Shown here piece by piece: positions 8,485 to 23,044 of a stretch of 61,516 bases of DNA. The stretch is from a virus. The notes beneath the pieces were generated by a model, which had not been told where the DNA came from, ran no database searches, and was given only the letters and a program-made list of their open reading frames with translations. The translations under genes were made by a program, and so were the position numbers. The DNA is taken from positions 1-61,516 of IMG/VR virus record IMGVR_UViG_3300036045_000009, one strand, 5' to 3'. How positions within the stretch are numbered: the first letter of the stretch is position 1; the number at the start of each line of letters is the position of its first letter.

Positions 8485-9113
8485 TGGGCCTGAACTGGTC
8501 GCGCGCGCTGGAAGGAGCTGCGGAAGGTGTCGCTGTGATGGGCGCCCACCAGGCACGCCGCGAGGATCAGGAAATCGAGCAGTTGCGGCAGGAGAACTTC
8601 GCCCGCCTTACCGCGGGGTTGGCGATGGAGCGAGACCGCGCGAACAACGCCGACATCGACAAGCGGCAAAAGGACCGCGACGCCGCGATCGAGGATCGGC
8701 AGGACAGGCGTGACGCCGCCATGTTTGGCCGCCAGCAGAAACTCATCGAGTCGCAGGAGGCGCGCGAGGACATGCGCAATGCGCGCGCGATGGAACTCGA
8801 CGAGCGCCGCTCGATGCGCGAGAGGCTGGCCGACGCCAAGGCGCGCGCGGGTGAACTTCGGAAGCAAGAAGCTGATGCGCTCGCTGAACTCGAAGCGCTC
8901 GAAACCTCGACGATCGCCGATCCGAAGGTGATAGCGCGCCGGCGCCGACAGCTCGAGGAAATAGTCGGCGACCGGCAACTGGCCGAGCGTGACATCGTGC
9001 GCTTCCAGCAGCGTGGTATGCCTACACCGCCGCGCCGCGGTCAACCGTTCGCCCCATCGAAAGACCCGTTCGAGTTCGGTCCACAGCTCATCCCAACGCA
9101 ACCGGGGCGCTGA
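8484..9113 (+). CDS. Coiled-coil internal virion protein
   Basis: A 209-residue, highly charged protein. Residues about 25-170 are Arg/Glu/Asp/Gln-rich with heptad spacing, a long continuous coiled coil. A Pro-rich tail ends in FGPQLIPTQPGR; the PQLIPT signature also appears near the start of the giant protein (PQLIPTSPPQ), and SQLIPMPG near the start of the 61076 gene. This shared short peptide may be a common virion-binding or processing tag. The stop shares a base with the start at 9113. Confidence 0.65.
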   Translation: MGLNWSRALEGAAEGVAVMGAHQARREDQEIEQLRQENFARLTAGLAMERDRANNADIDKRQKDRDAAIEDRQDRRDAAMFGRQQKLIESQEAREDMRNARAMELDERRSMRERLADAKARAGELRKQEADALAELEALETSTIADPKVIARRRRQLEEIVGDRQLAERDIVRFQQRGMPTPPRRGQPFAPSKDPFEFGPQLIPTQPGR

Positions 9114-12100
9114 TGGCCTACGACTGGCTCGCCGACGCGGAACGCGAGCCTTCCGACAACGAAGGCTTCGAGTGGGTCCGCGATCCAAATGATGGGCTCT
9201 GGTACGAGTTGCCGCAGGTCACGCGGCGCGCGTCGTCATACCTGATCGACCCTGAAGATGCGGTCGGCGCGGACTCGGGCGCCCCGCAACTCATACCGAC
9301 GTCGCCTCCACAGGAGAAGTCGAGTTTTTTCGGTTCGCTGTTCGACATCGAAATGGCGGACCTTGGCAAACTGCTCGGCGCCGAGGGGATTTCGATGGTC
9401 AGGGGGGCGTCGCCGGTCAGTATGGCGTCGTTCGGTGAGCCGGCATCGTTCGGGCTCGATCCGACGCTGCTTGAAGCTCAGGCCGAACTCGCGAGCCCGG
9501 AGAGCCGCAAGGCAATCGACGCCGAACTCGCTGGACAGGAGAAGGCGCTGCTGGAGTCGCGATCGCCGGGCTCTCAGGCGATAGACCAAGAGTCCTATGC
9601 ACGCTGGCCCGAACCCGGCGAGCAAGGCTCGAGGGTCACGAAGTTTCTCGATGCGATGGCGCCGAGCAATCCGCTTGCGATCGGCGCGGTCGCGTTGCGC
9701 GAGGCGTTCCCAAATACCCCGTTCATTGGGCGCGACGCCAAATTGGGCGACTTCAGCGCGGCGAAGATCGCTCAGGACGTGACACGCAGTCTGCCAAGCA
9801 CAGCGGCTGGTATTGCCGCAGGCGGCGGCATCAGCAGCGTGGGGCGAAACCTCGCTGCCAGCGTCCTCCGTCGGGAAGCTGTAGAGCGAGCCGCTACCGA
9901 GGGTAGTGAACAGGCTGTGCGGCAACTCGCTCGCTTGCAGCGCATCGACAGGGTGATTTCCGGCGCTGGCTACGGCGCTGGCGAAGCTGTTATCGCCGCT
10001 CCACAGGCCGCGCAGGACGTGCGCGACGAGATACTCGAACTGCCCGCAGAACTGCTGTTCGAGAGCAATCGCTTCCGCGAAATCTACGATGCCGCTCGCG
10101 AGTTGCCGGAAGCCGAGCGTATTGCCTACGCCCGCGACACGCTCGCGAACGAGCTCGGCAATGCCGCGGGGTTTCGTGTCGCGGCAGTCACGTTCGCGAC
10201 GGGTCCGCTCGCTGCCGATGTGGCCGCGCGCGCCGGCCGTCTGATGGAAGGTCGCACCGCACAGGAGGCGATCGCTGCCAGCCGAGGTCGAGCCAAGCAG
10301 GCGCTCGTGTCAGGTGCCCAGGAAGCCGGGCAGGAATTCGTACAGAGCGGCGGGCAGGAGTTCGTGTCCGCCGAACAGGTTCGTACCGTCGATCCGACTG
10401 TCGACTCGCAGATGCGCATGGTCGAGGGGGCGATCGGCGGCATGTTCGCTGGCAGTGTGATGGGCGCTGGCGTCGGTGCGCTGACCGGAGGAAAGCGGCC
10501 CGCACTTGGCCGCGAGGCGCCGGCAGGTGTTCAACTTCCACAAGGGGAGAGCCCTGATCCCGTTGCCGGGCCAGCGGCTCAGGCAAGTATGGCTGACGTG
10601 AGCCGGCTGGCTCGCGCCGCCCGCGAGGCCGGCGTCGATCCGGCGGCGCTGCGCGAGGTCTCGCAGGCCGTCATCCGCAAACAGGTGGCGCCAGCCGAGG
10701 CCGCGGAAGCCCTGAATTCGCTCATTGAAGCAGCCCGCCAGACCGCCGCAGAGGCTGCTACGGCGGAGCAAGAGCCCCCAGCCACGGAGACCCCCGCAGA
10801 GCCCGCCGAGCCGCCGCTGCCCGCCCAGGGCGAGCCGGATATGGCTGCCACGCCGGCTGCTCTCCTTGCAGAAGAGACCGTGAAGGCCAGGTTCAAGCGG
10901 GAACTGCTGGCGGACGTTCCGGCTGCCTTGGAGCGCTATGCGGCGCTGCCGGGCACGGACAACGGCAGGATCCTCGCGCCGGACATGGCGAAGCGCCTGT
11001 CGCCCGAGTACGTGGCTGATCGGACGCTCTCCGATGAGGTGGCGCCAGGCGCCTCGCACCTGATGCAGGCTGCTTTCGACCAGGCGATCCAGCAGCCGGC
11101 GCCAGCGGGCAAGCAGAACTACGTCGTGTTGACCTCCGGCGGTACCGGGGCAGGCAAATCGACGATTGCCGCTGACGTGCCGGAGTACGGCGAGGCCCAG
11201 GTCGTGTACGACACGAACCTCGCGAGCTTTGAAGTGGCGAAGCGCCGAATAGACGCCGCGCGCGACGCCGGCAAGAGCGTCTACATCGTGCACGTCTATC
11301 GCGATCCGACGGAAAGTTTCCGTCAGGGCGTGCTGCCGCGCGCGATGGGCGCAGAAGGGCGGCCAATCACCGTCGAAAGCCATGCGCGCACGCACGCTCA
11401 GTCGAACGAGGTCGTGCGTCGGCTCGCGGCGGAATATGCCAGCGACGCAGGCGTCACCGTCGAGATAATCGACAATTCCCGCGGGCCAGGGAAGGCGAGC
11501 AAGATCGCGGTCGAGGCGCTGCCGGCGGTGGAGTACAATGCGACTCGTGACGCAGCCCAACAGCAACTCGAAGAAGCCTACGACGCCGACGAAATCTCCG
11601 ACCGCATCTACCGCGCCAGCGGCGGGCAGCGCACAGCGCGATCAGTCGTTCCGCGCGTGGAGCGATCGGGCGACGAAATCAGCGGTGGACGCGCTGAACC
11701 AGAAGTTCGGGCCGAAGTAGATGGATTTTCGCCGGGAAGTGATCGGCGGAATCCGAATCCTGATTCTCGACGAGGCGTCCGAAATACCCCCCGAGGTGTG
11801 GAACGCGAAGCCGGCAGCGCCGAGCACGGCAGTCGTGCGGACGCCGGACCCAATGAGGCTTCCCGGCCCCTTGCCCAAGATCGGTCCGCTGCCACCGAAG
11901 TAGCGGCCGACGCCGCGCCGGCAGAAGAACCAGCAGAGGAATTCGACAGCGATCACGTTGTCGACCGTGGCGCATACACCGGCGCCTACGACCACGACGC
12001 GAGAGTGGCTTCGCTGCGCGCGAAGCTGCGCGGCGACAAGGCGTTCAAGGCGGCGTTCAAGTCTCCCAACGGCAACGACAACGCGCACGTCGAATCTGGC

Positions 12101-15100
12101 CCCGCCATCTCGTTCTTGGACGGATGGGAGGACGCGGCGGCGGGCAAGCCGATCGACGAGGCGCGCATTTCTCGCCCTACGGCAGATATGAAGCCGTGGG
12201 GCTTCAACCCGGTCGACTCCTACCGCAGCGGGTACGAAAGCCAGAAAGCCGGGGAGCCGCGCCGGCTTCGCGTACTCGATCCGATCGAAACGCCCGACAA
12301 AGCCCCGGCCGCTGCAGCGCCGACCGAGGCGCAGCCTGAAACTGACGTCGCCAAGATCTTCGAGAAGATGCTGCTCGCCGGCGCGCCAACGCGGCTCGCG
12401 GAGTTCCGCAGGGCCTATGGCGAGTCGCTCGGACGCGCGGTTATCCCGCGAGACTTCAAGACCGTCGACGAGCTCGTCGAGCGCGCGTTGGTGACGGTCG
12501 CGCGCCGCATCGTTGATAACGCGAAGTCGCCGGCCGAAGCCTTCGACAAGCTGGTAGCGCTGTATCAGTCGCAGCCGACTCTGAGCACGCGCACGTCGAC
12601 AAGCATCGAAAATCAGGCGTACTCGACGCCAGCACCGCTCGCCTACCTCGCTTCGCGCCTTGCCGGCATCACGAAAGACACGTTCGTGCTCGAGCCGAGC
12701 GCGGGCAACGGCATGCTGCTGATCGAGGCGAATCCGAAGAACACGCACGCGGTCGAACTCAACGAAGAGAGGGCGGAGTCGCTGCGCGCGCAGGGGTTCG
12801 CGCCGGTCGTTGGCGACGCGCTGTGGCCGTCATCTGCACCGGACCACGAGCAGGATGTCGTGATTGCGAATCCCCCGTTCGGCGTCGTCAAGACCGACCA
12901 GGGCGACTCGCAGACGTTCTCGATCGACGTCGGCATGGGGCAGATGCGCACGACCGAGATCGACCACGCGATCGCGCTCACGGCGTTGAAGCACATGAAG
13001 GTCGACGGGCGCGCCGTGCTCATCATCGGCGGGATCAACAGACTCGCGAAGTCGCAGGAGGCGCGATCGGACGCTTACAACGGCGCGGCGAAGCGCAAGT
13101 TCTTCTTCAACCTGCAGCGCCTTTACAACGTCGTCGACCACTTCACCGTGTCCGGCGACCTGTACGCGAAGCAGGGCGCGGGCTGGCCGGTCGATATCAT
13201 CGTGATCGACGGGCGGAGGCCGTCTGTAAGGGCGCTCCCGGCTGTCGATGTGCCTCGGGTGTACAATTCCTGGGCGGACCTGAAACCGCTGCTTGAGGCG
13301 ACCAATGAGCGCAATGATCGCATGGGCACCGACACCGCTGCGGCGGTGGACGCGGCTGACCGCGGTGCTGTGCGCGCCGGGGCAGACGATGCAGCGCTCG
13401 ACGTACCTGTCGCTGCTCGGGGAGCGGATACAGCGGATGGTGGACGCAGCGCAGAGCCCGCAGGAAGCGGCGTCCAACCTGCAGACGTGGCTGCACGAAC
13501 TGGGGCTCGTGTCGGACCTCGGCCACGTGCCAGCGAGCGAAGCGGGGAACCGGCTGGTGTGGAGCAATCCAGCGGTGGAAGAGAAGCTCGGCAACTTGGG
13601 CTTCCTGCGGAACCTGCCGGAGCAAGTAGCGGAGATGCCGGAAGCGCGCCAGCAGACGGACCTCGATCAGAGCGACCCGCTCGGCCGGCTCGCGCTGTGG
13701 ACGAGCGACCTGCACGCGACGATGACGAAGTAACGACCGGCGGGCAAACCGCCTACAGACCTTCCAGCGCTGTCGAGGCCATCGGCACGCTCGTTCCCTC
13801 GAACATGCGCACGGCGATTGCCGACGCGCTCACGGATATGTCCGCGCGCGCCGGCAGCATCGACGAGTACGTCGCGCGCGAGCTCGGGTACGAGCCCGCG
13901 GAACTCGGCCGCTACTTCTCCGCGGAGCAGGTCGACGCGCTGGCGTTAGCGCTCGACCAAATGAGCCGTGGATCGGGCTTCATCATCGGCGACCAGACCG
14001 GCGTCGGCAAAGGCCGGTTTGTGGCCGGCATCATCCGCTACGCGCTGAAGAACGGCCGCATTCCGATCTTCGTCACGGAGAAGCCGAACCTATACGCGGA
14101 CATCGTTCGCGACCTGCGTGACATCGCACACAAGGACATCCGTCCGCTGATGACGAATGCCGGCGAGCGCGTGCCGATCGACGACAGCGGTAATGAACTG
14201 CGCACCCAAGGCAATTCGCCGCATAACGCGCTGTTGAACAGAATCGCCGGCAGCGCCGACCTCGGCGAGTTCAACATCGTGTTCACGACCTACAACCAGA
14301 TGCAGACACTCAAGGGCAAGCCCACCGAGCGCATGCTGCTGCTGCAGGCACTGGCGCCGAACGCGATCGTCATCTTCGACGAGTCGCATAACGCTGGCGG
14401 TAGCGACGCCGAAAGGCGCTCTCGCAATCAGAAGGCCGCCGACGGGGGCAGCCCCAAGACTGGACGAGCGGCGTTCGCGCGCGCGCTGGCAAGCACAGCA
14501 AAAGGCGTCGTGTACTCGTCGGCAACCTACGCCAAGCGCCCGTCGGTCATGGACCTGTACTTCAAGACCGACATGAGCCTCGCCGTCGAAGGCGACGCGA
14601 CGAAACTGCCAGCGGCGATCGCCCTTGGCGGCGTGCCGCTACAACAAGCGGTGGCTTCGATGCTCGCGAGGTCCGGTCAGTACATCCGCCGCGAACGCAC
14701 GTTTGAAGGCGTCGAGTACAACACGCCCGTTGTCGGCGTGGATCGGTCGGCGGCCGAGTCCATTTCCGCGATGATGCTGGCGGTCAAGCAATTCGACGAC
14801 GCGAAGGCTGGCGCGGTCGATGCGCTGAAACGGGCGGCGAAGGCCGAAGCGAAGGTCGTGACCGGGAGCACGGCGACGGGGGCGGCCGGCGCGCACTCGA
14901 CGAACTTCACCTCGGTCATGCACAACCTGATCGATCAGATGCTTCTGGCTCTGAAAGCCGATAAGGCGGCGGACCTCGCGCTCGAAGCGTTGAAGCGCGG
15001 CGAGAAGCCGGTCGTCACCGTCTCGAACACGATGGGCTCGTTCATCGAAGAGTACGCGGACGCAGCAGGACTCGCCGGCGGCGATGCGATCACGCTCACC

Positions 15101-18100
15101 TTCCGCGACCTGATGCTCCGCTACTTGGCGAAGTCGCGCGAAGTCCAGGTCAAGGACCACACCGGCAAAGCGACGCGCCACTACCTGACGGACGAAGAAC
15201 TCGGCGCCGCGGGGCTGTACATGTACAACAGTGCCCGCACGGTGATCGACGAGTCCCCGCAGATTCAGGCGGTGCCGATCAGCCCGATCGACTGGATTCA
15301 TCACCGGCTGCGCGAAGCCGGGTACTCGTCGGGTGAGATCACCGGGCGATCGCACACGATCGAGTACGGGAAGAACGGCAAGGCCACGTACAAGCTGCGA
15401 TCGAGCAAGGACACCTCGATACGAGCGCGGCGCAACGCCATCGACAACTTCAACAGCGGGAAGCTGGACGCGCTCGTCCTGAACCAGTCCGGCGCGACCG
15501 GCCTGTCACTGCATGCCAGCGAGAAGTTCAAGGACAAGCGGCGCCGGCGCATGGTCATCGCCCAGGCGGAAAAGAACATCGACACGCACATGCAGATGCT
15601 TGGCCGGGTGCATCGCACCGGCCAAGTCATTGCGCCAGCCTACGATCAACTTGTCGCCGACGTGCCCGCCGAGAAGCGCCCGGCGGCTGTACTCGCGAAG
15701 AAGATGGCGAGCCTGAACGCGAATACAACGGCCTCGCGCTCGAGCCAGTTCACGAGCAAGGAGACCGTCGACTTCCTGAACATCTACGGCGATGAAGTCG
15801 CCGCGCAGTTGATGACCGACCTACCGGAGATTCACCTGAAGCTCGGCGAGCCGCTGGCCGCGGGCGAAAACGGGCTCGAACGCATCGACGCCGCGCGCAA
15901 GGTCACCGGGCGCATCCCCATGCTGCCGGTCGACGAGCAGGAGTCGCTGTACGACCTCATCGAGAACGCCTACGCCGATCGTTTGCAACAGGCGGAGGCA
16001 ATGGGCGAGAACGCGCTGGAAGCCAAGACGCTGCCGCTCGATGCGCGGACGGTCGAGCGCCGCGTGATTTTCGACGGCAAGCAGGGGGCGAGCCCGTTCG
16101 CGGCCGGCGCCGTGGCCGAAGTCGTCGACGTGAAGCGCCTGGGCAAACCGTACACGTCGGAGAAGGTGCGCGAGCTCGTGGCGTCGACTCTCGAACAGCC
16201 CGCAGACAGCACGCTTTCAGCCCTGTCGCGCGCGGGGGAGTCGGCGCGAGCCGAAGTCGTGAAGGACGTGACGGCGAAGTTCGAGAAGTATCTGACGGCC
16301 GAAGAGACGCGGATGCTGGAGTCGGACATGCCGGAAGCCGCCCGTGAAGGGCGGGTCGGCGCATTACGTGGAATCAATGCGCGCTGGCGCGAACTCTCGT
16401 ACACGCTGCACGTAGGCGGAAGCTACGAACTCACGATGGAGGATGGCACGACGCTCTATGGCGTGGTGACCGAGATCCGCCACAAGAAGGGCGTGAAGAT
16501 GCCGGTCGCGCTCGGCTCGTGGATCGCACACTTCGCCGTGGCCGACGGCGCGCGCACATTGAGCATTCCGTTCTCGCGTATGTCCACACGCCAAGCAGCG
16601 GTCGCGGGCATGGGCACGGTGACGGTCGAGCGTGCCAGCCGTCACCCGCTGACTGGCGCAACGATTGAACAGATGTTCGACGACGGCCAGACCCTTAGCC
16701 GCGAACAGCGCGTCGTCGTGACCGGGAACCTGCTCGCCGGCTACTCGCAGATGAAGCGCGGGCAGATCGTGAACTACACCGATGCCGGCGGCCGGACGCT
16801 GCAAGGCATCCTCATGCCTCGCTCGTTCAACCTCGCCGAGTTCACGGCGGAAGCGCCGGTAACGGTTACCGCAGATCAGGCCATCAAACTGCTGCGCGCC
16901 GAGTACAGCTCGATCGTGCGCACGGCCGATGGGCTGGCACAGGTGTCACGAGCTGGCGGTGACTTCGCGATCTCTGTGCCGCGCAGCAAAGCGGAGGGCG
17001 GGAAGTATTTTCTCGATCGCGGCCTGCGCGAGATCGTCGGGGATTTCGTGAGCACGTCGAGCGCGATGCGCGTGCTCGTGCCGGGGAGCCTCGTGTCCGG
17101 CGCCCTGGACTACATCAACACACAGATGGGCCAGCGGCTTGAGGTCGTCACCCATCGCGAGGCAGCGATTCGCGTCGGCGGAACCGCCATCGGCTCGCGC
17201 AAGGTGGAAGCGAAACCAGCCGAGCCGGAGCCTCTGTATTCCCGAGCCCCGGTGTTCTATTCGACTGCCCTTGCAACCGCCGAAGCGCTGCCGCTGCGCA
17301 AGGCGAGCGGTCAACAGTGGTACGCAACGCTCTCGAAGCGCCCCGGCGTGAAGCCGGATGAGCTCGACTGGATGGGGCTGAAGGAATGGCTCGGCGATCG
17401 CGCTGGCGTGACAAAGGACGAACTGATCGAGTTCATGCGCGCGAACGAAATCAACATCGAGGAAACGGAGCTCGGCGGCGACCAAGACCCGCGTGTGACG
17501 GCGGTGAAGCGCCTGCTCGCCGCCGGCTACGAAATCGACGACGACTACACAGCGGTCATCACGAAGAACGGCGAGGACGTCCGTGACGAGGACATGACCG
17601 CTGCCGAGCTCGCCGATTGGGAATTCGTGCGCAACGACCTTCCGAATGCCGATGCTACGGGGGAGCCTCTCGCCACCAAGTACGACGAATACACGCTGCC
17701 CGGCGGCAAGAACTATCGCGAGCTGATGTTGCGGTTACCCGCGCGAGACACGGTTACGCAAGTGCCATCCCCGGCCCCGGCGGGATGGGGCGACACAGAC
17801 GGCGGGAATGTCGGTGTAGCGCGGCGAGGGAATATCAAGGCCGACTTTCGCGGCGGTCACTTCGACGAGCCCAACGTCATTGCGCATGTGCGCTTCAACG
17901 AGCGCATCGACGCCGATGGCAAGCGAGTGCTGTTCATCGAGGAGATTCAGAGCGACTGGCATCAGGCCGGCCGCCGGCGTGGCTATCGCGGGCGGCAGAC
18001 ACCGCGGCCGACGCTAGATGATGTGGCGCGCGAGGTCTACGGGCGACCGTACTCCGAACTGGACGAGCCGACTCGGGCGGCAGTAGACAGCGAACACGCA

Positions 18101-21100
18101 GCGCGCGAGCGCGGGACTGGTGGCGCAGCGCCCGCGACGGATGGCGGGAATGCGGTGCCCGACGCGCCATTCAAGACGACATGGCACGAACTCGCGCTCA
18201 AACGGATGATCCGCTACGCCGCGGAAAGCGGTTTCGATCGCGTCGCGTGGACGACGGGGCAGACGCAGGCCGATCGCTACAGCCTTCGAAAGCGCCTGTC
18301 CGCGATCTACTACAGCGGCAGCAACTTCTCTGCGGTCGACCACAACGGGAAGGAGGTCATCCGGCGTACTGGCGTCACTCGCGAAGAACTCCCCGAATTG
18401 ATAGGGAAGGCAGCAGCAGATCGCCTGTTAGCGAAGGAGCCTGACGGAACCCTTCGGTCGCTCGAAGGCGAGGATCTGGAAGTCGGCGGCGAAGGCATGC
18501 TCACGTTCTACGACAGCATGCTCGTCGTAGCCGCCAACAAGTACGTGAAGAAATGGGGCGCGAAAGTCGGGTCCACGACGATCAAGGCCGACAACGCGCC
18601 GGAGGAAGTGGTCGCGCGCACGGCCGCATCCGATCCGAAGCATCCGCTGGTCGTGAAAAACCGCCTGCCTGTTCACTCGGTCGACGTCACGCCGGCCATG
18701 CGTGACTCCGTGTTGGCCGGGCAGCCGCTATTCAGCGGCGCGAGGGCGTCAGGCGGCGCAACCGTCGCCCAGGTCAGGACTTGGCTCGGCCGTGCGATCG
18801 ACAAAACCCGTGGCGCGGCGGAGACGGTAATCGTTGCAGATGTCGACGAACTGCGCCGGGTTACCGGCCGGCCGAACATTCCCGATGACGTGGAAGGAGT
18901 GTACTTCCTCGGTGGTCGTACGGTGTACCTCGTCGCGAGCCGGCTGCCGGACGCGGCGACGGCGCAGCGCAAGTTCGCGCATGAGATGTTCGGGCACCTC
19001 GCCCCGGAGCGGTACGAGGACATGCGCCGCGCGGTGACGATGGTGCAAAACCTGCGACGCATGAAGTCGCAGAGCATCACCGCGCTGTGGGACGAGGTAT
19101 CGCGGCTGCAACCTGGACTGACGGACCTGCAACACGCGAAGGAAGTCATCGCGCTCATGGCCGAGCGCGGCGTGAAGAATTCGATCATGGACCGCTTGCT
19201 CGCGTGGGTGCGGCAGACGCTTCGGTCGTGGGGCGTCAACATCGAGCACGCGGAGGCGGAACTGCGCGCACTCATCGGTCGCGCTGCCCGTGCGCTCGAA
19301 TCCGATGCGCGGCTGTCCGCGCGCGACGAAGCGAGCGTTGCGGATGCCGACGCGAAGGATGATGTGTCGCTCGATGCCGCGCTCGGCGCGATGGACCTGG
19401 CGCGCTCGCCGCTGATCGAGTCCGGGGCGCCGCTGGAGCAGTTCTACGAGCGGCCGGCTGATGTATTGGACGGCGACGCGCTCGACGTGAACCTCGAGGC
19501 GCTTGACGACGCCATAGCCCGGCACTGGCTGCCGCAGTTCTCGCGTGATGACGGCAGCGCGTTCGCGGCGGAAGTGCTCGTAGAACTCGGCGCGGTGGAT
19601 GAACTATTCAAGCGGCCCACGACCGGCGCCGGTACTGTGCGCGAAGCTCTTGCCGCTATTGCGCCGGACATTGAGTGGGGCGGCACGGAACTGCCAGTTG
19701 AGGAAAGTGATTGGTTCCGCGCGGAGCGTCGGCACGTCGCCAAGCTTCCGAATGGCAAGCCGCTGTATGTATACGAACGTGGCCGCGAAGTCTGGATCGA
19801 CATCAGTGACAGTAGGCGTGGCGGTGGCGGTGATGCCGCTTATCAGGCCATCGCGGACTATGCCCGCAACACTGGCCGCCGCTTCATCGGTGATCCGATG
19901 GGGCTGTCGGCGGATGCCATTGTTCGCCGGACTTACCACATGCTCTCGAACATGGTCCGGTACGGCGACCTGCGCGGCTTCGAGCCGGCGCCAGCCCAAC
20001 TGGAGGGCGCGCCAGATCGTAGGATTGCACCGCTGGCGTGGCCGGCGGACAATGCAGGCCGGTTCCGGGCGCTGATCGAGTCGTTCTATCAGACGCATCG
20101 AAACCTGTACCCTTGGATCGAGAATGTTCGATACAACTTTGCCGAAAGACGATTTGTTGGTGATTCAGCAGATCGACTCAATCAGGCAGTACATCATGGG
20201 CCTTCCTCCCCTGAGTCCCGAGGAATTGGAGCGCCGCAGGCGGGGCGCCGAACGCTGCGAGCGGCTGTATTCCTCCAATCCCTCCTACGCAGCGAAAGCA
20301 GCGAAAGACCCGCTGTACTGGCACAAGTTCTACGCCAGCCAAGTGAACTGGTAACGAAGGGCGGGCTCGACCCGCTTTTCTCTCGCTCTCCACCCGAAGA
20401 TCCGCAGCTAGCCGCCGACCGCCGAAAAGTCATGGCCGCTGCCGGGCACGCGGCGTTGCCGCTGCGCGACCGCTTGCGCTTGTTTCTGCGCAAGCACCTC
20501 GACTTCTCGAAGCTCGCCGCGCGCCAGTACATCGCCAACAGCTTCGCCTCGATCGAGGCGTACGAGCGCCTTATCAACGCGGGGCAGTTGCAGGATGCGT
20601 CGGTCTCGCCCTACAAACAGACGGTCGCGACCCAGAACCTCGGCTCGGTGATGAGCGCGGTGCTGTCGCACGGCGTCCCTGTCTGGCGCGACGGGGCTTA
20701 CGTGGTCGCGGACGACGGCCGAAAGGGCATCACCGACATCTTCGCGCCGCTCGTGAATCACCCTGCCGGCAACCTTTTGCCGCAGTGGGAGTATTACGCC
20801 GCGGCTCGCCGGGCTGCGCGTCTCATCACGGAAGGGCGCGAGCGACTTTTCACGCAGGACATGATCGACCGCGCGTTGGAGCTCGCGACGACGTATCCCG
20901 AATTTGATGGCGTATTCAACGACTGGCAGACCTTCAACAAGCAAGCGCTCGACATGGCGGAGGAAGCCGGGCTTCTAAATGCCGAGAGTCGCGCGATCTG
21001 GGAGCGCAACGACTACGTGCCGTTCTACCGGGCGGTGGAAGCCGCGTCCGGTCGGCTGAATCCGGTCTCGCTGAAGAAGGCGATCGCGAACCAGCGCGCG

Positions 21101-23044
21101 AAAATAAAGCGGCTCGTTGGCGGAACCGCGGCACTTGAGGACGTGTTCGAGTCGATGCTGATGAACACGGCGCACTTGGTCGACACGTCCTTCAAGAACC
21201 GAGCCGCGCAAGCGATCGTCACGCAGTTCGACGGCGTGGCGACCTCTCGTGCGCCGAAGGCCGCACAGCCCGTCCGCCTGTCGACAGAGCGCGTGCGCTC
21301 GGCGCTCGAGGCCGCGGGCATTGAGACGCTTGGCGATGCGGAAGCCGAGTACATGACCTTCTTCCGCGCGGTAGCGCCGACAGACAAGAACGTGGTTTCG
21401 GTGATGTTCGATGGCAAGCCGAAGTATTTCGAGGTGCACGATCCCCTGCTGTTGGAGTCGATTGTGCAGATGCACCCGAGCGAGTTCTTGCGCCGGATCG
21501 ACGTGTTCGGCCTGCTGTCGGGCTCGAAGCGGCTGCTCACGCGAGCGGTGACTGCGCTGCCGGGATTCATCGTCGCCAACCTCATGCGCGACACCCTGTC
21601 GAACGTGGTGCAGAACGAGAACAAGAAGATCGGCGACATGCTGAAACTGACGTTCCTCACGGAGGCGGCGAAGGGCTTCAAGGATTACGTGACCGACAAT
21701 CGTGTCGTGCACGACCTCATGATGGCCGGTGCCGGCGGCGACCAGATTTACGACAACGAGCGCGGGACACTGAAGAAGATACTCACCCGCGCGATGCAGG
21801 ATGCCGAAGCCGACGGCTTCCTCGATACCGTGGTGTCTCCGCGGCGGATCTGGAACGCCTACCGCAAGTTGCAACAGGCGTCGGAGAACGCGAACCGCAT
21901 CGCCGTGTACCGCCTCGTGCGCCAGCGCGGCGGCTCGCATGCCGAAGCCGCGTACCAGGCGCATGACGTCCTGAACTTCCAGCAGCGCGGCTCGCACCCG
22001 TTGATGCAACTGTTGGTGATGACGGTGCCGTTCCTCAACGCCCGCGTGCAGGGCCTCGATCGCTTACAGCGGGGTTACGCCGCGAACCGCATGGGGTTCC
22101 TGCTCAAGGGGCTGTTGCTCACGTCGGCAACGCTGGCGCTGATGGCCGCTGGCGATGACGACGAGCGGTATCAGGAGTTGGAGGAGTGGGATCGCGACCT
22201 GTATTGGCACGGCTGGATCGGCGACACGCACATCCGTATTCCGAAGCCGTTCGAGATCGGGGTACTGTTCGCGACGCTGCCCGAGCGCGCCGTGCGACTG
22301 ATGCGCGGTCAGGACGCCTTTCGCACGACGGCAAAGTCACTCGGTCGAATCCTGTTCGACACCTTCGCCTTCAACCCGACGCCGCAACTGGCGAAGCCAG
22401 TGATCGAAGCGTGGGCGGGCAAGAGCTTCTTCACGGGGGCGCCGATTTTGTCGATGCAGGACAAGAACGTGCTGCCGGAGGCCCGCTACCGGCCGTGGAC
22501 GTCGCCGACGCTGATCGAGCTCGCGAAGGCGATGCCGGACGGCGCGCCGGAGTTTCTACGCTCGCCCGTGCAACTGGAACACCTGCTGCGGGGATACCTC
22601 GGTGGGATGGCGATGTTGGGGCTGGAAGTGTCGGACACGGTGACGCGCTCGGCCGGCGGGTATCCCGATGCGCCGGCGAAGGCGTTCCACGAGCACGTGT
22701 TGCGGCGGTTCGTGCGAGTGGGCGAGCCGCGGACGACGAAGTGGCACGACGAACTGTACCGGATGCTTGATGTCGCAGATGACACCGCGCGCACGATCAA
22801 GAAGCTCGGCGCCGAGGGGCAGATGGAGGCGGCGCGCCGGCTGGCGACAGAGCGCAAGGAACAGTTGCTCGTGCGCCCACGCTTGAACGACATCGCTCAG
22901 GAGATCCGGAAACTGAGTGCGCGGGCGCGCATGGTCCAGTCCTCGTCGATGACCGCCGAGCAGAAGCGGGCGGCGCTGGAGAAGATTTACGCGCGCCGCA
23001 ATGAACTGGCTCGCATGGTCGAGCCGTACGCCCCACTGTTCTAA
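9113..23044 (+). CDS. Giant polyvalent (DarB-like) virion protein, 4,643 residues
   Basis: Domains seen, in order: Ala-rich helical region with hydrophobic segments (1-620); P-loop kinase resembling zeta toxin, Walker A GGTGAGKST at 676-684; N6-adenine methylase-like domain with SAGNG near 1197 and NPPF at 1253-1256; strawberry-notch/SNF2-type helicase with Walker A GDQTGVGKG at 1626, DESH at 1756-1759 and QMLGRVHRTGQ at 2161-2171; an LPD-type domain with EIQSDWHQ near 2943; a zincin-like HEMFGH at 3290-3295; and a long helical C-terminus with hydrophobic stretches. Known LPD-rich proteins are injected with phage DNA and protect it or act early. Disordered linkers at about 843-931, 1398-1541 and 3671-3747 lie over nested +1-frame genes. 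Family from memory. Confidence 0.85.
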   Translation: MAYDWLADAEREPSDNEGFEWVRDPNDGLWYELPQVTRRASSYLIDPEDAVGADSGAPQLIPTSPPQEKSSFFGSLFDIEMADLGKLLGAEGISMVRGASPVSMASFGEPASFGLDPTLLEAQAELASPESRKAIDAELAGQEKALLESRSPGSQAIDQESYARWPEPGEQGSRVTKFLDAMAPSNPLAIGAVALREAFPNTPFIGRDAKLGDFSAAKIAQDVTRSLPSTAAGIAAGGGISSVGRNLAASVLRREAVERAATEGSEQAVRQLARLQRIDRVISGAGYGAGEAVIAAPQAAQDVRDEILELPAELLFESNRFREIYDAARELPEAERIAYARDTLANELGNAAGFRVAAVTFATGPLAADVAARAGRLMEGRTAQEAIAASRGRAKQALVSGAQEAGQEFVQSGGQEFVSAEQVRTVDPTVDSQMRMVEGAIGGMFAGSVMGAGVGALTGGKRPALGREAPAGVQLPQGESPDPVAGPAAQASMADVSRLARAAREAGVDPAALREVSQAVIRKQVAPAEAAEALNSLIEAARQTAAEAATAEQEPPATETPAEPAEPPLPAQGEPDMAATPAALLAEETVKARFKRELLADVPAALERYAALPGTDNGRILAPDMAKRLSPEYVADRTLSDEVAPGASHLMQAAFDQAIQQPAPAGKQNYVVLTSGGTGAGKSTIAADVPEYGEAQVVYDTNLASFEVAKRRIDAARDAGKSVYIVHVYRDPTESFRQGVLPRAMGAEGRPITVESHARTHAQSNEVVRRLAAEYASDAGVTVEIIDNSRGPGKASKIAVEALPAVEYNATRDAAQQQLEEAYDADEISDRIYRASGGQRTARSVVPRVERSGDEISGGRAEPEVRAEVDGFSPGSDRRNPNPDSRRGVRNTPRGVEREAGSAEHGSRADAGPNEASRPLAQDRSAATEVAADAAPAEEPAEEFDSDHVVDRGAYTGAYDHDARVASLRAKLRGDKAFKAAFKSPNGNDNAHVESGPAISFLDGWEDAAAGKPIDEARISRPTADMKPWGFNPVDSYRSGYESQKAGEPRRLRVLDPIETPDKAPAAAAPTEAQPETDVAKIFEKMLLAGAPTRLAEFRRAYGESLGRAVIPRDFKTVDELVERALVTVARRIVDNAKSPAEAFDKLVALYQSQPTLSTRTSTSIENQAYSTPAPLAYLASRLAGITKDTFVLEPSAGNGMLLIEANPKNTHAVELNEERAESLRAQGFAPVVGDALWPSSAPDHEQDVVIANPPFGVVKTDQGDSQTFSIDVGMGQMRTTEIDHAIALTALKHMKVDGRAVLIIGGINRLAKSQEARSDAYNGAAKRKFFFNLQRLYNVVDHFTVSGDLYAKQGAGWPVDIIVIDGRRPSVRALPAVDVPRVYNSWADLKPLLEATNERNDRMGTDTAAAVDAADRGAVRAGADDAALDVPVAARGADTADGGRSAEPAGSGVQPADVAARTGARVGPRPRASERSGEPAGVEQSSGGREARQLGLPAEPAGASSGDAGSAPADGPRSERPARPARAVDERPARDDDEVTTGGQTAYRPSSAVEAIGTLVPSNMRTAIADALTDMSARAGSIDEYVARELGYEPAELGRYFSAEQVDALALALDQMSRGSGFIIGDQTGVGKGRFVAGIIRYALKNGRIPIFVTEKPNLYADIVRDLRDIAHKDIRPLMTNAGERVPIDDSGNELRTQGNSPHNALLNRIAGSADLGEFNIVFTTYNQMQTLKGKPTERMLLLQALAPNAIVIFDESHNAGGSDAERRSRNQKAADGGSPKTGRAAFARALASTAKGVVYSSATYAKRPSVMDLYFKTDMSLAVEGDATKLPAAIALGGVPLQQAVASMLARSGQYIRRERTFEGVEYNTPVVGVDRSAAESISAMMLAVKQFDDAKAGAVDALKRAAKAEAKVVTGSTATGAAGAHSTNFTSVMHNLIDQMLLALKADKAADLALEALKRGEKPVVTVSNTMGSFIEEYADAAGLAGGDAITLTFRDLMLRYLAKSREVQVKDHTGKATRHYLTDEELGAAGLYMYNSARTVIDESPQIQAVPISPIDWIHHRLREAGYSSGEITGRSHTIEYGKNGKATYKLRSSKDTSIRARRNAIDNFNSGKLDALVLNQSGATGLSLHASEKFKDKRRRRMVIAQAEKNIDTHMQMLGRVHRTGQVIAPAYDQLVADVPAEKRPAAVLAKKMASLNANTTASRSSQFTSKETVDFLNIYGDEVAAQLMTDLPEIHLKLGEPLAAGENGLERIDAARKVTGRIPMLPVDEQESLYDLIENAYADRLQQAEAMGENALEAKTLPLDARTVERRVIFDGKQGASPFAAGAVAEVVDVKRLGKPYTSEKVRELVASTLEQPADSTLSALSRAGESARAEVVKDVTAKFEKYLTAEETRMLESDMPEAAREGRVGALRGINARWRELSYTLHVGGSYELTMEDGTTLYGVVTEIRHKKGVKMPVALGSWIAHFAVADGARTLSIPFSRMSTRQAAVAGMGTVTVERASRHPLTGATIEQMFDDGQTLSREQRVVVTGNLLAGYSQMKRGQIVNYTDAGGRTLQGILMPRSFNLAEFTAEAPVTVTADQAIKLLRAEYSSIVRTADGLAQVSRAGGDFAISVPRSKAEGGKYFLDRGLREIVGDFVSTSSAMRVLVPGSLVSGALDYINTQMGQRLEVVTHREAAIRVGGTAIGSRKVEAKPAEPEPLYSRAPVFYSTALATAEALPLRKASGQQWYATLSKRPGVKPDELDWMGLKEWLGDRAGVTKDELIEFMRANEINIEETELGGDQDPRVTAVKRLLAAGYEIDDDYTAVITKNGEDVRDEDMTAAELADWEFVRNDLPNADATGEPLATKYDEYTLPGGKNYRELMLRLPARDTVTQVPSPAPAGWGDTDGGNVGVARRGNIKADFRGGHFDEPNVIAHVRFNERIDADGKRVLFIEEIQSDWHQAGRRRGYRGRQTPRPTLDDVAREVYGRPYSELDEPTRAAVDSEHAARERGTGGAAPATDGGNAVPDAPFKTTWHELALKRMIRYAAESGFDRVAWTTGQTQADRYSLRKRLSAIYYSGSNFSAVDHNGKEVIRRTGVTREELPELIGKAAADRLLAKEPDGTLRSLEGEDLEVGGEGMLTFYDSMLVVAANKYVKKWGAKVGSTTIKADNAPEEVVARTAASDPKHPLVVKNRLPVHSVDVTPAMRDSVLAGQPLFSGARASGGATVAQVRTWLGRAIDKTRGAAETVIVADVDELRRVTGRPNIPDDVEGVYFLGGRTVYLVASRLPDAATAQRKFAHEMFGHLAPERYEDMRRAVTMVQNLRRMKSQSITALWDEVSRLQPGLTDLQHAKEVIALMAERGVKNSIMDRLLAWVRQTLRSWGVNIEHAEAELRALIGRAARALESDARLSARDEASVADADAKDDVSLDAALGAMDLARSPLIESGAPLEQFYERPADVLDGDALDVNLEALDDAIARHWLPQFSRDDGSAFAAEVLVELGAVDELFKRPTTGAGTVREALAAIAPDIEWGGTELPVEESDWFRAERRHVAKLPNGKPLYVYERGREVWIDISDSRRGGGGDAAYQAIADYARNTGRRFIGDPMGLSADAIVRRTYHMLSNMVRYGDLRGFEPAPAQLEGAPDRRIAPLAWPADNAGRFRALIESFYQTHRNLYPWIENVRYNFAERRFVGDSADRLNQAVHHGPSSPESRGIGAPQAGRRTLRAAVFLQSLLRSESSERPAVLAQVLRQPSELVTKGGLDPLFSRSPPEDPQLAADRRKVMAAAGHAALPLRDRLRLFLRKHLDFSKLAARQYIANSFASIEAYERLINAGQLQDASVSPYKQTVATQNLGSVMSAVLSHGVPVWRDGAYVVADDGRKGITDIFAPLVNHPAGNLLPQWEYYAAARRAARLITEGRERLFTQDMIDRALELATTYPEFDGVFNDWQTFNKQALDMAEEAGLLNAESRAIWERNDYVPFYRAVEAASGRLNPVSLKKAIANQRAKIKRLVGGTAALEDVFESMLMNTAHLVDTSFKNRAAQAIVTQFDGVATSRAPKAAQPVRLSTERVRSALEAAGIETLGDAEAEYMTFFRAVAPTDKNVVSVMFDGKPKYFEVHDPLLLESIVQMHPSEFLRRIDVFGLLSGSKRLLTRAVTALPGFIVANLMRDTLSNVVQNENKKIGDMLKLTFLTEAAKGFKDYVTDNRVVHDLMMAGAGGDQIYDNERGTLKKILTRAMQDAEADGFLDTVVSPRRIWNAYRKLQQASENANRIAVYRLVRQRGGSHAEAAYQAHDVLNFQQRGSHPLMQLLVMTVPFLNARVQGLDRLQRGYAANRMGFLLKGLLLTSATLALMAAGDDDERYQELEEWDRDLYWHGWIGDTHIRIPKPFEIGVLFATLPERAVRLMRGQDAFRTTAKSLGRILFDTFAFNPTPQLAKPVIEAWAGKSFFTGAPILSMQDKNVLPEARYRPWTSPTLIELAKAMPDGAPEFLRSPVQLEHLLRGYLGGMAMLGLEVSDTVTRSAGGYPDAPAKAFHEHVLRRFVRVGEPRTTKWHDELYRMLDVADDTARTIKKLGAEGQMEAARRLATERKEQLLVRPRLNDIAQEIRKLSARARMVQSSSMTAEQKRAALEKIYARRNELARMVEPYAPLF
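11538..11720 (+). CDS. Nested +1-frame ORF in giant-gene linker (60 codons)
   Basis: A 60-residue frame inside the giant gene, starting at ATG 11538 after GGTGGAG. The first half looks like a shadow (Thr/Ser/Pro-rich) while the giant frame there is still protein-like. From about 11631 the picture reverses: this frame reads QRDQSFRAWSDRATKSAVDA while the giant frame becomes Arg/Gly/Asp/Pro-rich. It may be a remnant C-terminus of the upstream kinase domain now out of frame, rather than a free gene. Confidence 0.35.
   Translation: MRLVTQPNSNSKKPTTPTKSPTASTAPAAGSAQRDQSFRAWSDRATKSAVDALNQKFGPK
11721..11903 (+). CDS. Nested +1-frame small gene in giant-gene linker
   Basis: A 60-residue frame whose ATG directly follows the previous nested stop (TAGATG). 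The product begins MDFRREVIGGIRILILDEAS and ends in a Pro/Lys-rich tail. By eye about three quarters of its third codon positions are G or C, against about half for the giant frame over the same bases, so the coding signature favours this frame. The giant frame here is low-complexity linker. Function unknown. Confidence 0.5.
   Translation: MDFRREVIGGIRILILDEASEIPPEVWNAKPAAPSTAVVRTPDPMRLPGPLPKIGPLPPK
13305..13733 (+). CDS. Nested +1-frame gene overprinted on giant-gene linker (142 residues)
   Basis: The ATG at 13305 has GAGG at 13295-13298, six bases upstream, and the frame ends in TAA at 13731-13733. The product looks like a normal globular helical protein: balanced Leu/Glu/Ala/Trp, with segments such as LLGERIQRMVDAAQSPQEAA and NLGFLRNLPEQVAEMPEARQ. 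By eye about 88% of its third codon positions are G or C. Over the same bases the giant frame has roughly 45% and encodes an Ala/Gly/Arg/Asp/Pro string between the methylase and helicase domains. I consider this the better-supported coding frame here. No family recognised; a regulator or antidote of the surrounding enzyme is only a guess. Confidence 0.7.
   Translation: MSAMIAWAPTPLRRWTRLTAVLCAPGQTMQRSTYLSLLGERIQRMVDAAQSPQEAASNLQTWLHELGLVSDLGHVPASEAGNRLVWSNPAVEEKLGNLGFLRNLPEQVAEMPEARQQTDLDQSDPLGRLALWTSDLHATMTK
20124..20354 (+). CDS. Nested +1-frame gene in giant-gene linker (76 residues)
   Basis: A 76-residue frame from ATG 20124 to TAA 20352-20354 inside the giant gene. The product is protein-like: LLVIQQIDSIRQYIMGLPPL, SPEELERRRRGAERCERLY, then a Trp/Tyr-rich end KDPLYWHKFYASQVNW. 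About 75% of third positions are G or C, against about 42% for the giant frame, which here is Ser/Arg/Pro-rich linker. Upstream ribosome-binding signal is weak (GGATCGAGA). Function unknown. Confidence 0.6.
   Translation: MFDTTLPKDDLLVIQQIDSIRQYIMGLPPLSPEELERRRRGAERCERLYSSNPSYAAKAAKDPLYWHKFYASQVNW

Follow-up and report, generated by a model that had tools for sequence, protein, structure and literature searches.

The window, a 61.5-kb virus record, carries one ORF (9113–23044) that encodes a 4643-residue polyvalent protein. The host gene meets the criterion for this class of proteins, namely an adenine methylase fused to an SF2 helicase of the SWI2/SNF2 type and to LPD domains in one ORF. The linker between the methylase and the helicase is overprinted throughout by a second ORF on the same strand, designated here as X. 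The features of the locus are as follows:

9113..23044, plus strand, host giant gene (4643 aa) with Zeta toxin-like, methylase, Strawberry-notch helicase, LPD37, and LPD38 regions
12593..13300, plus strand, DNA methylase domain region of the giant protein
13281..13283, plus strand, in-frame TGA that shuts the X frame 5' of the X start
13295..13298, plus strand, GAGG Shine-Dalgarno sequence of X, six bases 5' of the ATG
13301..13741, plus strand, interdomain linker of the giant protein, overprinted by X throughout
13305..13733, plus strand, X (overprinted gene, 142 aa), in the +1 frame of the giant ORF
13952..14737, plus strand, first half of the helicase (AAA_34; giant residues 1614–1875)
15335..16009, plus strand, second half of the helicase (Helicase_C_4, the C-terminal domain on Strawberry notch homologue; giant residues 2075–2299)

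X begins with ATG at 13305 and ends with TAA at 13731–13733 after 142 codons. An earlier note, made from the sequence alone, had proposed this nested ORF at the same position in the methylase-helicase linker, and its description was confirmed. The GAGG that it placed six bases upstream of the ATG is present, and the GC content at third codon positions (GC3), estimated at about 88% for the nested frame, was computed to be 87.4%. The corresponding value for the giant frame over X, estimated at about 45%, held roughly (48.3%). The giant-frame counterpart of X is a low-complexity linker rich in A, G, R, P, and E, as claimed, and the nested frame is predicted by a structural model to encode a mostly helical protein, also as claimed.

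GC contents at codon positions 1, 2, and 3 were 0.685, 0.483, and 0.874 in the X frame, which is the normal coding pattern, and 0.874, 0.685, and 0.483 in the giant frame over the same bases; those of the entire giant gene were 0.687, 0.483, and 0.787. When the giant gene was scanned for codon usage in 142-codon windows (4501 in total), the shift to the +1 frame was maximal at X (0.398 nats per codon at 13304), and the best value found more than 450 nt away from X was 0.098. The codon-signature shift that the earlier note proposed to look for is thus present and unique in the giant gene. ORF length by itself is no evidence, because forward ORFs of 157 and 158 aa at 12823–13296 and 19599–20075 in the giant gene have no coding signal. 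Elsewhere in the giant gene, GC3 falls to about 0.5–0.6 at 19913–20400, near LPD37, without an alternative coding frame; this drop possibly marks a recently acquired domain. The Shine-Dalgarno sequence of X in the window is weak. No promoter-like site was found near X in the window, and X is therefore expected to be translated from the giant transcript.

A direct search with the X of the window found no match in named phages or in the viral-contig scan because X diverges fast, and the full X alignment (A1) contained no stretch conserved enough for a scan of the collection. The route that succeeded was to collect homologous helicases and read their linkers. The helicase region, used as a query, retrieved 73 viral loci, in which the methylase and the helicase were located and the linker was read in all frames; giant-gene homologues were taken from these 73 viral contigs, from plasmids, and from 80 bacterial genome loci. 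Linkers of 250 nt or more were present in 138 loci, and in 115 of these the linker is filled by a +1 ORF homologous to X. The final family profile, with its noise level set by shuffled and out-of-frame decoys, recognised X in 68 of 71 phage loci, in 6 of 11 loci from plasmids or phage records, and in 41 of 74 genome loci, the denominators being loci that carry the methylase and the helicase in that order. The 68 phage loci bear on the possibility, raised in the earlier note as a refutation, that homologues have stop codons in the nested frame: they all keep the homologous ORF open. X is in the +1 frame in 115/115 cases with the giant frame open across it; linker length varies from 270 to 1840 nt among the viral loci, and the X frame is nevertheless always +1. 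A scan with X itself returned 51 loci, all within a giant open frame.

The pattern of X in the largest group is MIAW.P ... W.eALaDRV ... G..LV..Nl.L ... WVelALS, and the proteins fall into a long type of about 130–150 aa and a short type of about 90–110 aa. Two of the proteins (L010 and L012) are very divergent, the former lying below the final profile threshold. X occurs on plasmids of Chroococcidiopsis, Gloeobacter, Leptolyngbya NIES-3755, Picosynechococcus PCC 7002 (a standard laboratory strain; plasmid pAQ6, L130 2456–2962), and Synechococcus NIES-970, and in many genome loci of cyanobacteria, Alphaproteobacteria, Desulfovibrio, and others. Among the plasmid records examined, only one, the Gloeobacter plasmid pGMOR1, has an annotated overprinted X (L076 3492–3941; WP_230844304.1, assigned by PGAP). 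In that record, the PGAP helicase begins after X, which leaves out the methylase although the ORF is open from 2477.

X is not indispensable to the linker. Some loci, mainly of Bacteroidota, have long linkers without a recognisable X, and linkers of about 100 nt, again mostly of Bacteroidota, have none. In several of the long Bacteroidota linkers, the +1 frame is closed. The existence of these short and +1-closed linkers indicates that the linker can do without X. Six Bacteroidota methylase-helicase fusions (L187, L191, L195, L202, L204, and L217) have linkers of 440–750 nt with no open alternative frame and serve as natural controls. Several candidates were rejected or left unclaimed. A 150-codon ORF between separate methylase and helicase genes in an Aquimarina MAG (L211 2900–3349) was considered as an unfused X, but its score was within the range of shuffled decoys; the scores of L077, L140, L146, L176, L178, and L189 were also within that range, and these loci are not claimed as carriers. 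L190, which was outside the profile test, has a linker ORF at the same place as L189.

The start of X is marked in a consistent manner. In most phage homologues, it lies at a constant position with respect to where the methylase ends and is preceded by AAGGAG at a spacing of 7. Of 58 distinct phage genes, 35 have an X-frame stop codon immediately 5' of the start, and 46 have one no more than four codons away. X thus fulfils the criterion of having its own initiation signal and its own stop. A rival explanation is programmed ribosomal frameshifting, in which a +1 slip at the linker would make a methylase-X fusion. The constant +1 relation of X to the giant frame speaks for it, and Shine-Dalgarno-like AAGGAG inside a coding sequence can stimulate frameshifting, as in prfB and dnaX. 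However, a frameshift product demands that the nested frame be open 5' of the start, and X fails this criterion: a slip 5' of the start would terminate at once at the X-frame stops found there in most of the 58 genes. Where a stop comes immediately before the start codon, X is better explained by initiation of its own than by slippage. Furthermore, the 7-nt spacing to the ATG in most homologues is that of initiation. We thus regard frameshifting as very unlikely.

The two frames differ sharply in predicted structure. AlphaFold, given an alignment of 53 X proteins, returned a model with a pLDDT of 94.4 and a pTM of 0.89, in which two short strands are predicted to accompany a helical bundle. 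For a matched control, these 53 DNA segments were read in the giant frame, and the resulting model had a pLDDT of 56, a pTM of 0.14, and no secondary structure. A Foldseek search with X yielded no meaningful match (best E-values, 1.1 in PDB and 2.4 in BFVD), and X profile searches of Pfam, PHROG, and NCBIfam gave no significant match. The family is usually acidic, with a median pI of 4.4; the X of the window, at pI 5.6, is less so.

Selection was examined with 33 long-type sequences forming 22 close pairs, which are not independent of one another. The dN/dS values are plain NG86 counts per frame, not a dual-frame model, and the flanking regions served as controls. Substitution rates at nested codon positions 1, 2, and 3 were 0.062, 0.060, and 0.139, respectively, the highest being at position 3. 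For X itself, the dN/dS was 0.29, compared with 1.26 when those bases were read in the giant frame; in the flanking methylase and helicase, the pairs gave 0.19 and 0.09, respectively. The synonymous rate was 0.18 in the overlap versus 0.42–0.51 in the flanks, as expected if both frames restrict change. No giant-frame stop was observed over X in the 58 genes, whereas 408 were expected when X codons were resampled by the host's own usage and 86 when they were permuted within genes. These results show that X is under purifying selection and that the giant linker, while free of residue-level constraint, is held free of stops. The proposal of the earlier note that the coding signature belongs to the nested frame is supported, since protein-level constraint and a fold are found in that frame and the giant frame is merely open.

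One could suppose that X is a by-product of a GC-rich, low-complexity linker whose +1 frame is open by chance, as the other long out-of-frame ORFs without coding signal in the giant gene would suggest. Against this, the protein sequence, the start, and the Shine-Dalgarno sequence are conserved over 115 loci, AT-richer phages included; the dN/dS of 0.29 and the contrast in pLDDT (94 vs 56) would not be accounted for; and the +1 frame is closed in long Bacteroidota linkers that lack X. A single recent origin of the homologues is excluded by their spread over phages, plasmids, and several phyla. Chance is all but ruled out. Another rival holds that the methylase, X, and the helicase are three separate proteins, the helicase being started within the giant gene by coupling to termination at the X stop. 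In its favour, the PGAP helicase of the Gloeobacter plasmid starts 4 nt before the X stop. However, the absence of giant-frame stops where 86–408 were expected indicates that readthrough is selected, and a giant-frame start codon lies near the X stop in only 24 of the 58 genes, with a Shine-Dalgarno-like site in one. This explanation is also very unlikely.

Computation thus shows that the DNA between the methylase and the helicase is read in two frames, with X beginning where the methylase coding region ends and stopping shortly before the helicase. By the same means, the product of the +1 frame is a soluble-looking, mostly helical, and usually acidic protein of about 90–160 residues. We conclude that X is very likely (probability, about 0.88) a genuine, ancient same-strand overprinted gene that is internally initiated and whose product is most probably a partner of the methylase-helicase, its expression and function being inferred. 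Computation likewise assigns to the giant frame a disordered linker, with residues free to vary and stops forbidden so that the methylase and the helicase share one polypeptide. In the mechanism that we propose, ribosomes would, in all likelihood, enter the giant mRNA internally at the X start and make X as a separate protein in addition to the giant one, although this is an inference made without expression data.

The function of X is less certain. Distances between X proteins correlated with those between helicases (r=0.91), a value that 0 of 999 permutations reached. We propose an accessory role because X and the helicase diverge in step and X is almost always at one place: it may assist the methylase-helicase in trans, whether as an accessory or as a regulatory subunit, in a DNA-modifying antirestriction machine, a role that the present data leave evenly balanced. 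The partnership is an inference that rests on position and co-inheritance alone. The main rival on this point is that X is real but independent of the methylase-helicase, such as a free-standing anti-defence protein or DNA mimic stored in the linker. The usually acidic character of the family favours this view, as does an un-overprinted copy in Coleofasciculus that has no methylase or helicase within 3.5 kb. In contrast, the near-strict linkage of X to the methylase-helicase over great distance, their congruent divergence, and the lack of a match to known mimic folds speak against it, and we consider an independent role the weaker, although viable, alternative.

Copies outside the overlap bear on the origin of X. 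In Leptolyngbya boryana, a homologue of cyanobacterial X is an ordinary annotated gene just 5' of the helicase gene (L139 2411–2911). The genome of Coleofasciculus LEGE 07092 has one copy without an overprinting frame (L220 1483–2001) and two others that are overprinted. Both methylase and helicase are absent from the 3.5-kb locus of the former copy, which adjoins an unknown ORF of 152 codons. These un-overprinted copies in two cyanobacteria indicate that X is able to exist outside the overlap. The earlier note had called X an older or inserted gene; "older" is favoured by the same copies but not proven, because the fusion is also of long standing and the inference rests on no rooted phylogeny. 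The simplest history is a methylase-X-helicase operon whose flanking genes were fused through X, while the reverse order is not excluded. With a slight preference, we infer that X may once have been an ordinary gene between the methylase and helicase genes, and that the fusion would have read through it.

Other linkers of these proteins also contain short +1 ORFs. In the window, codon usage shifts to +1 in a second linker, which follows the Zeta-toxin region of the giant protein (11538–11903), and upstream linkers of other phages have short +1 ORFs that differ among them and have good Shine-Dalgarno sites:

11538–11720 and 11721–11903 of the window, two adjoining short +1 ORFs in the second linker, about 60 aa each
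L005 6082–6291 and L068 6106–6306, upstream-linker +1 ORFs
L030 4468–4650 and L044 5332–5529, upstream-linker +1 ORFs
L028 5875–6048, upstream-linker +1 ORF
L066 5176–5391, upstream-linker +1 ORF

Two homologous pairs among the upstream-linker ORFs are conserved as protein, and those of other phages gave no family matches. On a bolder reading, polyvalent linkers are a general home of overprinted genes, X is an ancient co-translated subunit of the methylase-helicase, and more small genes lie in other linkers. We hold this reading only tentatively, as the odds are against it; if it is true, these giant genes are in effect operons compressed into one reading frame plus nested frames.

The giant protein belongs to the polyvalent class of Iyer et al. 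2017, with a methylase, a SWI2/SNF2-type Strawberry-notch helicase, and LPD domains (PMC5512222). The DNA methylase-helicase dyad described there is thought to modify and protect the DNA of the incoming element, DarB of phage P1 being an example (PMC5512222). Our search of the main text of that paper turned up no gene located in the linker. A widely conserved folded protein exactly over the interdomain linker of a giant gene appears to be new within the open-licence literature that we searched, although an earlier description is not excluded. Same-strand nested genes are deemed rare in prokaryotes, and annotation tools tend to drop ORFs inside larger genes (PMC12350097), which explains why a family present in more than 100 loci has been almost invisible. 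X would be an unseen component of the methylase-helicase antirestriction machines that phages and plasmids bring into cells, and its locus is an unusually clean test of dual coding, with a confident fold and disorder arising from the same bases.

Three known systems invite comparison. The DNA-mimic antirestriction proteins Ocr and ArdA are, like X, small and found in an antirestriction setting, and the acidic character of most X proteins, less marked in the copy of the window, may be a further likeness. No sequence match to such mimics was found for X, and the searches of PDB and BFVD gave no match to their folds. The small subunits Cas11 arise by internal translation within the large-subunit gene (PMC11899642); like X, whose partnership is inferred, they are small partners with an internal start in the gene of a large nucleic acid-processing protein. 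However, Cas11b is made by internal in-frame translation, whereas X is always +1, fails the criterion of a product in frame with its host, and has no sequence in common with the giant protein. The third system is comS of Bacillus subtilis, which is nested within srfA (PMC12350097). Like X, it is read from the strand of its giant multidomain host gene but in a different frame, and its role is distinct from that of the host product. The product of comS is a short peptide of about 46 aa with a restricted distribution. Unlike comS, X is a folded protein of 90–160 aa that is spread over phages, plasmids, and several phyla and lies exactly over an interdomain linker.
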